Assembly (NCBI GenBank): GCA_021781555.1
Contig: JAJXWQ010000027.1
Location: 1 to 41,727, forward strand
Length of the DNA: 41,727 bases
Direction: 5' to 3'
From: a bacterium
GTDB lineage: Bacteria > Cyanobacteriota > Sericytochromatia > S15B-MN24 > VGJW01
This document shows, in pieces, positions 24,327 to 37,066 of this stretch. The notes under the pieces are model-generated. The model did no database searches and was not told the DNA's origin. It saw only the letters and a list, made by a program, of their open reading frames with translations. Every line of letters starts with the position of its first letter. Positions within the stretch are counted from its first letter, which is position 1. The translations under genes and the position numbers were made by a program.

Positions 24327-24992
24327 ATGATCCGAGTTCTCGTCGTCGACGATCACCCGATAGTCCGTCGCGGGACCTGCGAAATTCTCGCAGATGCGCC
24401 GGACCTCGAGGTCGTGGGCGAGGGATCCAACGGCGCCGAGGCGATCGAGCTGTCGGACCGGTTGAGGCCTGACGTGCTGATCATGGACGTATCCATGCCC
24501 GTGCTGGACGGCGTCGAGGCTACCCGCCGCCTTTCGGCCGTGCCCGGTGGCCCCGGGGTCCTGATCCTGTCTGCGGGTGGCGAGGACGATCAGATCCTCG
24601 GCGCCTTGCGCGCGGGCGCACTGGGATACCTCCTCAAGACGGCCCCGGACGAGTTGCTCATCGAGGCGGTCCGGTTGGTCGAGCAGCGCAAGCCTGCGGT
24701 CTTGCAGCCCGAGGTCACGCGAGTTCTCGTCGGCGGGGTTTCCGAGACTTCCGGAGCCCGCGAGGTTCTGGACCTTCAGGAGTCCCTGTCGGAACGTGAG
24801 ATCGAGGTTCTGAAGGAAGTAGCCAAGGATCTTGCCAACAAGCAGATCGCGACTCGGCTTGCCATCTCGGACCGCACCGTGCAGCAGCACCTGGCCAATG
24901 TCTATGGCAAGCTCGGGGTTTCATCTCGTACCGGGGCCGTGCTGAAAGCCTTGCAGCTTCGGCTCCTGGCTCTCGAAGACTGCAAGCTCTGA
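24327..24992 (+). CDS. NarL/FixJ-family response regulator
   Basis: A 221-residue regulator, started at the ATG of MIRVLVVDDH with GGGGAG 5 nt upstream. The receiver has D8-D9, phospho-acceptor D54 in LIMDVSMP, S82 and K104. The C-terminal LuxR-type helix-turn-helix reads LSEREIEVLKEVAKDLANKQIATRLAISDRTVQQHL (in parts). No kinase gene is adjacent. The FecR-domain gene begins 15 nt after its stop and a barrel-like gene follows, so the three probably form an operon. Confidence 0.9.
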   Translation: MIRVLVVDDHPIVRRGTCEILADAPDLEVVGEGSNGAEAIELSDRLRPDVLIMDVSMPVLDGVEATRRLSAVPGGPGVLILSAGGEDDQILGALRAGALGYLLKTAPDELLIEAVRLVEQRKPAVLQPEVTRVLVGGVSETSGAREVLDLQESLSEREIEVLKEVAKDLANKQIATRLAISDRTVQQHLANVYGKLGVSSRTGAVLKALQLRLLALEDCKL

Positions 24993-25007
24993 GGGGAGAC
25001 GGTGGCG

Positions 25008-26468
25008 ATGAGCGAATCGATTCTCAGGCGGACGGCGAGCGTTTGCGGCCGGGGGCCTGGCGGCTGGCGCCAGGTCCGCCCCGCAGTCCTGGCGATCGCC
25101 GGGCTGCTGGCCACGGCTCCGGTGGCTCGCGCGGCGGATTTTGCCCAGGTGTTGCGGGTCGTCGGTCCGGTCGAGTACCGACATGCCAGGGTCTGGAGCC
25201 CGGCGAAGGTCGGCACCGAGCTGGACCCGGGCGATGCCATTCGAACCGGCGACAAGGCCTACGCCACGATCCGGGACCGGGGGGCCGTCACGAAGCTTTA
25301 CCCCCTGACCACGCTCGACATCACGAGCGATTCCCAGCTTTCGGTCACCGCCGGCCGGATCTGGTCGCACTTCCTGCACGTGCTCGGTTTGCCCCGCGAG
25401 ATCCGGGCACCCGACGCGGTGGCCATGATCCGGGGGACGACCCTGTCGGTCGGGGTTTCGTCGGCCGAGAGCAACGTGACGGTCCTCGAGGGCCATGTGG
25501 TGGTCCAGGCCCTCTCCGGGGCGAGTGCGATGGTCAACGGCGGCTTCTCGGTGGGCGTCGACCACGGGATGCTGGGGTCGGTGCTGCAGGCCAATCCCGT
25601 TTTGCTGGATCAAGGTCGGGCGTTCCTCGAGCGAGCGCTCCCGCTCATGAAGGGGATGAGCGCAGCTCCGGGCCGGCCGCTCGGCCGAGATGAGGCCCGC
25701 AACGCCAGGCGCGCTCCGGGCGAGGCTCCGGGGATGGTCCGGGCCGATCGATCGGGCGGCCCGGCACCCTCCGGTGGCGCTCCGGTTGCACGAGCCTCCG
25801 AGGCCCTCGGCGGGACTGACGCGGCGCGGGATACGGTGGGCGGGCCCGGACAGCTCCGGCCACCAGCGGGCGGGGCCAGCCCTGGGCTTGCCGGCCAGAT
25901 GCCGGCGCGTCCGGGCATTCCCGGAGCTGGAACGACCCGTCCGGGAGCCGGGCCGATCGGTCCGCATGCGCTGCAGTGGCACCGCCCGGACGCCGAGCAG
26001 CGATCCGAAGCGGAGTGGGACGCGGGCAGGCTCGGCGCGATGGACCTGCAGCGGGGCTCCAACCCGTTGGTGTTCCGGCGGGCCGGGCCTGGCCGCGGCA
26101 TGGTCGGCCGCCGTGGCTTCCCTGCCCAGAATGCGCCGATGGGCCTCTTCCGGACCGGGCCCGGGCCGTCGATGATGGGAGGTCCGGGGCCCGTTGGCGA
26201 TCTTTCCGTCGAGCGGATGGAGCGTCCGGCTGGCGTGGTCCTTCCGAATGGCCGGCCGATGGCGAGAGTGCCGGTCCAGGGCGGTGCAACATCCGGGCTG
26301 CCTGGCCCCGTGCAGGCCACGGAGCCGCGCGACGGCGCCACCAGTCCACTCACCGGCGCTACCAGTCCACTCACCGGAACGAGCCCGTCCCAGGTGGAGC
26401 CGGTGTCGAGTCAAGGCGAGCATACGGAGTCACTGCCGCAGGGGACCGGTGTCCGCCAAACCAGATAA
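25008..26468 (+). CDS. Secreted FecR-domain protein with long Pro/Gly-rich tail
   Basis: A 486-residue protein; ATG at 25008 is favoured over the GTG at 25002 because GAGGGGAG then sits 9 nt away. A signal peptide ends around ATAPVARA-A. Residues about 45-175 form a FecR domain: repeated short beta strands with PGDAIRTGDKAYATIRD, TLDITSDSQLSVTAGRIW, and the family-typical IRAPDAVAMIRGTTLSV followed by VTVLEGHVVVQ. From about residue 215 the protein is low-complexity and rich in Gly, Pro, Arg and Met, ending in a TSPLTGATSPLTG repeat. FecR domains are known as anti-sigma regulators and in secreted polymer- or signal-binding proteins; with no TM helix or sigma factor, a periplasmic or surface role is more likely here. 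Confidence 0.82.
   Translation: MSESILRRTASVCGRGPGGWRQVRPAVLAIAGLLATAPVARAADFAQVLRVVGPVEYRHARVWSPAKVGTELDPGDAIRTGDKAYATIRDRGAVTKLYPLTTLDITSDSQLSVTAGRIWSHFLHVLGLPREIRAPDAVAMIRGTTLSVGVSSAESNVTVLEGHVVVQALSGASAMVNGGFSVGVDHGMLGSVLQANPVLLDQGRAFLERALPLMKGMSAAPGRPLGRDEARNARRAPGEAPGMVRADRSGGPAPSGGAPVARASEALGGTDAARDTVGGPGQLRPPAGGASPGLAGQMPARPGIPGAGTTRPGAGPIGPHALQWHRPDAEQRSEAEWDAGRLGAMDLQRGSNPLVFRRAGPGRGMVGRRGFPAQNAPMGLFRTGPGPSMMGGPGPVGDLSVERMERPAGVVLPNGRPMARVPVQGGATSGLPGPVQATEPRDGATSPLTGATSPLTGTSPSQVEPVSSQGEHTESLPQGTGVRQTR
26334..26375 (+). repeat. Two 21-bp tandem units inside the FecR gene
   Basis: Two adjacent 21-bp units differ at one base and encode GATSPLT twice. They lie in the low-complexity tail close to the stop codon. 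A copy-number change would keep the reading frame. Confidence 0.8.
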
Positions 26469-27261
26469 GTTCGGGCCGGGGCCAGCTGACGCAGCCACGC
26501 TCGCCGTCGTCATGGCGTGGCTGCTTTCTGCCGGCCCCTGCCAGGCCGCGGATGTCCAGCCTTTCACCCAGGTGGCCGCCGTCGGTGCATACGATGGGAA
26601 CATCTCGGGCCACTCCGATGTGGCGATCTCGCCCTGGAACACGGTCTACACGAAGGGGCCGGCGGACTGGCACGGCGGGCTGGTTGCCGGTGGGGGCGTC
26701 AATCTGGATGTCGACGACTGGCTTTCGGCACTCTGTGTCGTCGACGTGGCGGGTCAGCGATATGTCGACTACCCGGCCCTTAGCGGGTTCTTCGGGTCGG
26801 CCTCGTTCCAGGGTAAGGCCGTGGATCTTCCCGGCGATATCGATGCCATTCTGACGTACAGCTTCCGGGAGGATTTCCAGGGCGACTCCGGGCACGATGT
26901 CTCGGGCGGAATCGAACGGCCGCTGCCCTTTGCGGTCGTGGGCGCTTCGGATATCGGCTACGACTGGAGCCTGGCGGCCGACAGCTCCCTGGGCTACCAG
27001 GGCCCGTACGTCGATATCGGAGCCAACCGCCGATTTCGGGCCACGGGTACCTGGCTCATGGCCCGGGTGACCGGCTTGGTCGAAGGGTATTCTGGCCGCA
27101 CCGACGGGATCGTTTCGACTTCGGCCGAGGTCTCGCAGGACCTGGGCGAGCAGACGGCCATCTTCGGCCGGGTGAGCTACGACTGGGTTTACAGCACCGA
27201 GGCCGGCCGCTCGCTTTCGAGCCCGGAGTTTCTCGTGGGGACCGTCTGGACCTATCCATAG
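26449..27261 (+). CDS. Probable outer-membrane beta-barrel protein
   Basis: A 270-residue protein starting at GTG (26449) after AGGGGACCG and overlapping the end of the FecR gene by 20 nt, which implies translational coupling. A signal peptide ends at GPCQA-ADVQ. The mature part is made of alternating polar/aromatic strands typical of barrels (QPFTQVAAVGAYDGNISGH, DIDAILTYSFREDF, VGASDIGYDWSLAADSSLGY, TAIFGRVSYDWVYS) and ends in SPEFLVGTVWTYP, close to the aromatic C-terminal signature of outer-membrane barrels. It probably works with the FecR protein at the outer membrane. No specific family was recognised. Confidence 0.75.
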   Translation: MSAKPDKFGPGPADAATLAVVMAWLLSAGPCQAADVQPFTQVAAVGAYDGNISGHSDVAISPWNTVYTKGPADWHGGLVAGGGVNLDVDDWLSALCVVDVAGQRYVDYPALSGFFGSASFQGKAVDLPGDIDAILTYSFREDFQGDSGHDVSGGIERPLPFAVVGASDIGYDWSLAADSSLGYQGPYVDIGANRRFRATGTWLMARVTGLVEGYSGRTDGIVSTSAEVSQDLGEQTAIFGRVSYDWVYSTEAGRSLSSPEFLVGTVWTYP

Positions 27262-27266
27262 ACGGT

Positions 27267-27482
27267 TTGCAGTTGAACGGGTCCCTCTGCGCGGTCGCTA
27301 CGCTGCGCAACCGGGCCCCGTATCTTTTTCAGTGTGAATGGGTCCCTCTGCGCGGTCGCTACGCTGCGCAACCGGGCCCCGTATCTTTTTCAGTGTGAAT
27401 GGGTCCCTCTGCGCGGTCGCTACGCTGCGCAACCGGGCCCCGTTTGACTCCTTAGGCTCGAGCCCTGCCAGCCGGGAGTACT
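27267..27482 (+). repeat. Three tandem copies (C) of the interspersed repeat
   Basis: The left half of the repeat occurs three times at a 61-bp period; only the third copy has the full right half. Copies one and two end in gtatctttttca, giving a T-rich stretch after each hairpin on the plus strand. The array separates the convergent barrel and aldo/keto reductase genes, and its right end (gtactcta) contains the TAG stop of the latter. It could terminate transcription from both sides. Confidence 0.85.
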
Positions 27483-29330: not shown

Positions 29331-29533
29331 CTTTTGCAGTTTGAATCGGTCCCTCTGCGCGCTCGCTGCGCTGCGCAATCGAGCCCCGTTTGACTCCTCG
29401 GGCCCGCTTCCTTCAAAGCGGAGCACTCTAGACCTTTTGCAGTTTGAACGGGGCCCTCTGCGCGCTCGCTTCGCTGCGCAACCGGGCCCCGTTTGACTCA
29501 TCGGGCTCGATCCATTCAAAGCGGAGCACCCTA
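29331..29533 (+). repeat. Two head-to-tail copies (D1, D2) of the repeat between moaD and moaE
   Basis: Two full copies of about 100 bp each lie head to tail. D1 has ctcgctgcgctgcgcaatcgag, diverged from the consensus; D2 is close to consensus with an ACGGGGCCC/GGGCCCCGT arm pair. The right end of D2 (gcaccCTA) includes the TAG stop of moaD, and the left end of D1 supplies the AAAGG preceding moaE on the minus strand. They therefore fill nearly the whole moaD-moaE gap. Confidence 0.9.
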
Positions 29534-36187: not shown

Positions 36188-36280
36188 ACCCCTGAACGGA
36201 TCCCTCTGCGCGGTCGCTACGCTGCGCAACCGGGCCCCGCTCGCCTCCCCGGGGCCCGATCCTTCCCGGGCGAAAGCGAT
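36188..36280 (+). repeat. Diverged full copy G of the repeat between fliJ and fliK
   Basis: The central hairpin (tccctctgcgcggtcgc to gcgcaaccgggccccg) is conserved, but the right half is diverged (ctcgcctccccggggcccg). Its right end abuts the TAA stop of fliJ at 36281-36283. It therefore lies inside a flagellar gene pair. Confidence 0.75.
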
Positions 36281-36891: not shown

Positions 36892-37066
36892 TACCGTTTT
36901 CGGTTTGAACCGGTCCTCTGCGCGGTCGCTACGCTGCGCAACCGGGCCCCGTTTGACTCTTAGACCTTTTGCAGTTTGAACGGGGCCCTCTGCGCGGTCG
37001 CTACGCTGCGCAACCGGGCCCCGTTTGACTCATCGGGCTCGATCCATTCAAACCGGGAGCACTCTA
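36892..37066 (+). repeat. Two head-to-tail copies (H1, H2) of the repeat before fliJ
   Basis: H1 has only the left half (gtttgaaccggtcc to gactcttag). H2 is full-length and close to consensus, with ACGGGGCCC/GGGCCCCGT arms and a GTTTGA/TCAAAC pair. They lie between the DnaJ-TPR gene and fliJ on the minus strand, upstream of the fliJ start and about 55 nt after the DnaJ gene's stop. Confidence 0.88.

Follow-up and report, generated by a model that had tools for sequence, protein, structure and literature searches.

A NarL-type regulator, an exported FecR-domain protein and a candidate outer-membrane barrel as probable parts of an envelope-spanning CHASE2 two-component system

Here we describe a conserved gene set from a non-photosynthetic class of Cyanobacteriota in which a candidate outer-membrane barrel, an exported FecR-domain protein and a NarL-type response regulator would serve as the outer, periplasmic and cytoplasmic-output components of a two-component system that spans the envelope, with a CHASE2-domain histidine kinase encoded on another contig (C173) of the same genome as its sensor. 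We put the probability of this reading at roughly two in three. The three genes lie together at 24327-27261 of the window, the whole 41,727-nt contig (C24) that was analysed, all on the + strand, in a genome assembly of 3.8 Mb that is 98.65% complete. The class is taken to be non-photosynthetic because the photosystem reaction-centre family PF00124, present in other families of the phylum, has 0 matches in it.

The locus and its three products

The gene set is isolated on the + strand, between a divergent Memo-family gene on one side and a convergent aldo/keto reductase gene on the other, and in the sister species (G001) the same three genes are flanked by the same neighbours. The coordinates confirm the tight packing described in the original prediction, with 15 nt between the regulator and FecR genes and a 20-nt overlap between the FecR gene and the third gene. 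A promoter and terminator scan found neither. The dN/dS ratio between the window species and its sister is 0.16 for the regulator, 0.32 for the FecR domain and 0.20 for the barrel gene, and because these values indicate purifying selection they support the view that all three open reading frames are real genes.

The first gene (24327..24992, + strand) encodes a predicted NarL-type response regulator of 221 aa, with a receiver domain (Pfam Response_reg, E 3.2e-24) and a GerE/LuxR DNA-binding domain (Pfam GerE, E 1.9e-19). Its receiver residues are conserved in an alignment of eight orthologues, and it shares 53-67% identity with orthologues of other genera as against 40% with its nearest paralogue in the same genome, which lies on contig C6 near other receiver and kinase genes.

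The second gene (25008..26468, + strand) encodes a protein of 486 aa (Pfam FecR, E 1.1e-6) from an ATG 15 nt past the regulator stop, with an alternative in-frame GTG at 25002; the FecR domain occupies 25236..25499 (+ strand; residues 79-166 of the GTG-start product) and is the only FecR-family match in the window genome. Several features claimed for this protein from its sequence were borne out: its N-terminus resembles a signal peptide and no other hydrophobic helix follows, as expected of an exported protein; there is no ECF sigma factor in the operon; and the Gly/Pro/Arg-rich C-terminal tail, put at about 270 residues, measures 271 (25653..26465, + strand), with 19% Gly, 14% Pro and 11% Arg in a low-complexity composition. 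The tail shows the weakest constraint in the operon (dN/dS 0.52). In more distant relatives it is shorter (absent to 151 residues, the copy in genome G002 being cut by a contig end) and of different composition, variation that suggests a flexible tether more than a folded domain. An AlphaFold model of the FecR domain, built on an alignment of two sequences, reached a pLDDT of 30 and was discarded, and the sole match of a PDB search with the FecR alignment was to the FecR-like N-terminal part of MtxA (4z29; E 0.0014).

The third gene (26449..27261, + strand, GTG start) encodes an exported protein of 270 aa that is likely to be an outer-membrane beta-barrel. Its start resembles a signal peptide, it lacks membrane helices, and its counterpart in the sister species, 84% identical, aligns from the same residue 1. 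On a simple home-made measure of alternating-residue hydrophobicity, which is not a trained predictor, the protein scores z 4.3 over shuffles, with 12 segments where 5.8 are expected; most of its homologues behave similarly (z 1.3 to 4.4), and two controls, the regulator and the tested kinase region, were negative. Phe is the usual last residue of outer-membrane barrels, and it ends four of the seven third-protein homologues, the window protein ending in Pro. One homologue has a match to Pfam OMP_b-brl that does not reach the curated cut-off (E 2.4e-4). Profile comparison of the third protein with the PDB gave chance matches only (MOP-family transporters, E 0.15), a search of a plasmid collection returned no matches, and no TonB-dependent receptor domain was found in its 270 residues. 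The protein is the fastest-changing of the four considered here (13-36% identity between genera), as expected for a surface-exposed part. The earlier view of this gene as an outer-membrane barrel draws indirect support from export, the amphipathic strands and the one weak OMP_b-brl match, but not from structure prediction, which again rested on two aligned sequences and gave an uninformative model (pLDDT 29) that was discarded.

A CHASE2 histidine kinase and its linkage to the operon in relatives

The window genome encodes a single CHASE2 protein, a histidine kinase on contig C173 (locus L050; 8872-10797, minus strand). Behind its N-terminal CHASE2 domain come additional membrane helices, an H-box resembling HisKA_3 and an ATPase (HATPase) domain; the HisKA_3 match clears the Pfam cut-off for the kinases of G006 and G007 but not for that of the window genome, which nevertheless keeps the H-box residues. 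The kinase is intact, belongs to the same family as the kinases that adjoin the regulator in relatives, and, like the window regulator, retains its catalytic residues. It is likewise retained, and unlinked from the operon, in the sister species; in this one genus the kinase has moved away from the operon. The regulator had been described as having no adjacent kinase, which is true of the window locus but does not make it kinase-less, since an intact, cognate-looking partner is present elsewhere in the genome and adjoins the regulator in five relatives. The notion of an orphan regulator was set aside once this kinase was found, and we infer that the C173 kinase is the partner of the window regulator. 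Its CHASE2 domain carries a Gly-, Pro-, Ser- and Arg-rich insert of some 40 residues, which is absent from the kinases of other genera and resembles the FecR tail in composition.

The three genes are also linked in relatives, in some of them as part of a longer gene row than that of the window. In five genomes of the same order (G005-G009) the CHASE2 histidine kinase gene lies directly upstream of the regulator gene. G006 and G007 have kinase, regulator, FecR and barrel as four adjacent genes in one direction, and the row in G005 is identical, although its assembly leaves bases of the kinase gene unresolved. In G008 a CheX-like gene takes the barrel's place after kinase, regulator and FecR, with no barrel at the locus, and in G009 the row is kinase, regulator and barrel, with FecR on a separate contig; neither FecR nor barrel is therefore strictly tied to the operon. 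In G002 the regulator and FecR genes run off one contig, and a second contig carries the barrel gene and, convergent to it, the kinase gene, the two being separated by one DUF4382 gene.

Of the 10 genomes of the order, 8 have kinase, regulator and FecR and the other two lack all three, namely G003 (98% complete) and G004, whose assembly is 64% complete, so that absence from it carries little weight. A barrel gene was identified in seven of the eight. These counts are small and all come from one order. Among the matches listed from a search of 386 genomes of the phylum, which scored at most the best three candidates per genome and could thus pass over weaker copies, the full-length kinase occurs only in those eight genomes; the other matches align to part of the kinase model, mostly the CHASE2 part. 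Evolutionary distances correlate highly among the four protein families (r 0.86-0.98), but this comparison was made with no control gene, shared species history alone could explain it, and it is given no weight here.

FecR genes also have other company in the class. Its other families have a further pairing of FecR with an outer-membrane barrel, in which the FecR-domain gene directly precedes large genes for Porin_5 porins, some of them with an SLH match, and no kinase gene adjoins (L041, 7601-9853; L043, 5753-8007; L045, 7056-9284; L042, 6736-8715), and G002 has a second FecR gene beside a CHASE2 adenylate/guanylate cyclase gene (L047, 3576-6172), a known kind of pair.

Relation to known FecR and CHASE2 systems

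CHASE2 is a widespread sensor domain and the factors that it recognises are not known (PMC5192318). That a CHASE2 sensor can have a FecR partner is already known. The BiofilmReg operon of Burkholderiales, whose interruption abolished biofilm formation, encodes a regulator, a LysM-FecR protein and a CHASE2 kinase (PMC5192318), and the gene set was confirmed in an example from Paraburkholderia (L120). BiofilmReg and our set thus share a response regulator, an exported FecR protein beside it and a CHASE2 histidine kinase as one gene set, but BiofilmReg has an OmpR/CreB-type regulator, LysM on the FecR protein, a PAS plus HisKA kinase and a DUF4136 protein as its fourth gene, whereas our set has a NarL (GerE)-type regulator, no LysM match, no PAS, a HisKA_3-like kinase and the barrel as its fourth gene. 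In Campylobacterota a CHASE2 adenylate cyclase is clustered with a FecR-domain outer-membrane protein (PMC9239204), again a CHASE2 sensor with a FecR partner, but there the output is a cyclase and a phosphodiesterase, accompanied by a TPR protein, with no two-component output. MtxA of Magnetospirillum (PDB 4z29) is encoded next to a CHASE2 adenylate cyclase (PMC4439547) and resembles our set in its FecR-like N-terminal part and CHASE2 sensor gene partner; it differs in its C-terminal domain and its cyclase partner, and no barrel gene is reported in the passages of its description that were examined (PMC4439547).

The closest parallel is with NsrA and CyaK of Sinorhizobium meliloti. There the response to ribosomal protein uL2 requires both NsrA, an outer-membrane receptor, and CyaK, a CHASE2 cyclase, and residues 600-1200 of NsrA are treated as a beta-barrel (PMC7529298). 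In CP140934.1 the nsrA and cyaK genes overlap by 1 bp in one transcription direction, and in NsrA a signal peptide is followed by a FecR domain (E 2e-15), by TPRs and by the C-terminal part. The FecR domain of NsrA (L119, 2399-6001, pSymB) is clear, at residues 66-160, and has no mention in PMC7529298. By hhalign the window FecR domain is homologous to that of NsrA (probability 96.7%, E 4e-10) and the CHASE2 sensor to that of the NsrA system (probability 99.3, E 1e-20, CHASE2 part), but homology between the two barrels was not detected (probability 0.1). Both systems thus associate a FecR domain and a barrel with a CHASE2 sensor, NsrA-CyaK by means of one 1200-residue protein that combines FecR, TPR and barrel, with cAMP as output, and ours by separate FecR and barrel genes, the barrel being small, with a histidine kinase and NarL regulator as output. 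The fusion of FecR and barrel beside a CHASE2 sensor in NsrA is the best evidence that the two act together as a receptor, and our set, a split version of the NsrA design with phosphorelay output, is most likely an envelope-spanning surface sensor.

The original prediction noted that the arrangement departs from that of known FecR systems. This stands in so far as there are no sigma or TonB partners, but the arrangement is not wholly new, FecR-CHASE2 sensor pairs being known; the literature searched contained no example in which a small barrel and a FecR protein are encoded separately and the output is of the HisKA_3-NarL type. We suggest tentatively, at somewhat less than even odds, that FecR domains are general periplasmic adaptors coupling outer-membrane barrels to CHASE2 receptors, and that in this order barrel, adaptor, kinase and regulator, all separate proteins, form a direct chain from outer membrane to phosphorelay. 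Such a chain would add a surface-sensing pathway to a poorly studied, non-photosynthetic sister group of the photosynthetic cyanobacteria, and, being built of small separate proteins, it would be more readily tested part by part than the 1200-residue NsrA.

A model for signal transfer and its alternatives

The occurrence of CHASE2, FecR and a probable barrel as separate genes of a conserved set suggests how such receptors may work, in that the barrel would receive, FecR relay and CHASE2 read. According to the model, the outer-membrane barrel would meet an external or envelope-derived signal, and the FecR protein, with its long flexible tail, would pass the barrel's state on through the periplasm to CHASE2. 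The kinase, with its HisKA_3-like and HATPase regions, would then phosphorylate the NarL-type regulator, which in its phosphorylated form would change transcription. The sequences themselves establish the gene set, its linkage and co-occurrence in relatives and the integrity of kinase and regulator; we infer the barrel fold, physical contact of both barrel and FecR with CHASE2, the signal's direction and the pairing of kinase with regulator in the window species. The model is favoured because kinase, regulator, FecR and barrel are adjacent in three genomes, and three of the four in two more; because the only CHASE2 protein of the window genome is an intact kinase of the same family; because the regulator is nearer to its orthologues than to its own paralogue; because kinase, regulator and FecR co-occur or are jointly absent in the order; because NsrA, which acts with the adjacent CHASE2 cyclase, joins a FecR domain and a barrel in one protein (PMC7529298); and because FecR adjoins CHASE2 sensors in BiofilmReg, in Campylobacterota and in the MtxA locus (PMC5192318, PMC9239204, PMC4439547). 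Against it stand the unlinked kinase of the window genus, the missing barrel at the G008 locus and the FecR gene on a separate contig in G009, the lack of detectable homology to the NsrA barrel and the uninformative fold model. The surface sensing that was first proposed, and a functional link among the three genes, are supported both by linkage in relatives and by the NsrA fusion, whereas nothing was found in support of the other proposal, an export system.

The main alternative, which we regard as unlikely, is that FecR and barrel are the output rather than the input, such that the envelope is sensed through the CHASE2 kinase and the NarL regulator, and the regulator controls FecR and barrel as an envelope or surface module. 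Regulators often adjoin their targets; kinase and regulator persist in different company where the barrel is missing (G008) or FecR lies elsewhere (G009); and the FecR genes that adjoin Porin_5 porins in other families of the class do so without a kinase. However, in several phyla FecR is found with CHASE2 sensors irrespective of whether a cyclase or a kinase is the output (PMC5192318, PMC9239204), and NsrA, a FecR-barrel fusion, acts upstream of its CHASE2 cyclase (PMC7529298). It is far less probable that the window regulator uses a kinase other than that on C173, or drives FecR and barrel alone as an orphan: kinase and operon are indeed on different contigs in both species of the genus, but both retain the kinase, which is intact and the single CHASE2 kinase of the window genome, the regulator keeps its receiver residues, and its orthologues adjoin the same kinase family in five genomes.

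Descent, with loss of parts, from a sigma-factor surface signalling system of the FecI-FecR-FecA type known from iron citrate signalling, which shares with our set a periplasmic FecR domain and an outer-membrane partner, was rejected and is given almost no credence, since its defining features are missing: there is no sigma factor in the operon, the third protein shows no TonB-dependent receptor domain, the exported FecR protein has neither a transmembrane nor a cytoplasmic anti-sigma segment, and the partner in relatives is a CHASE2 kinase. The envelope-spanning CHASE2 system remains our preferred reading.

The window also contains a hairpin-forming intergenic repeat, which lies just 3' of the barrel gene as three tandem 61-nt copies (27274-27456) and recurs at 26-59, 29342-29505, 36205-36238 and 36917-37022. 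Its core has 286 exact matches in the window genome and 0 in the reversed control, 1 match in the sister species and 0 in five other genomes of the order, and this abundance in one genome and near absence from the relatives examined argue that the repeat has spread recently.
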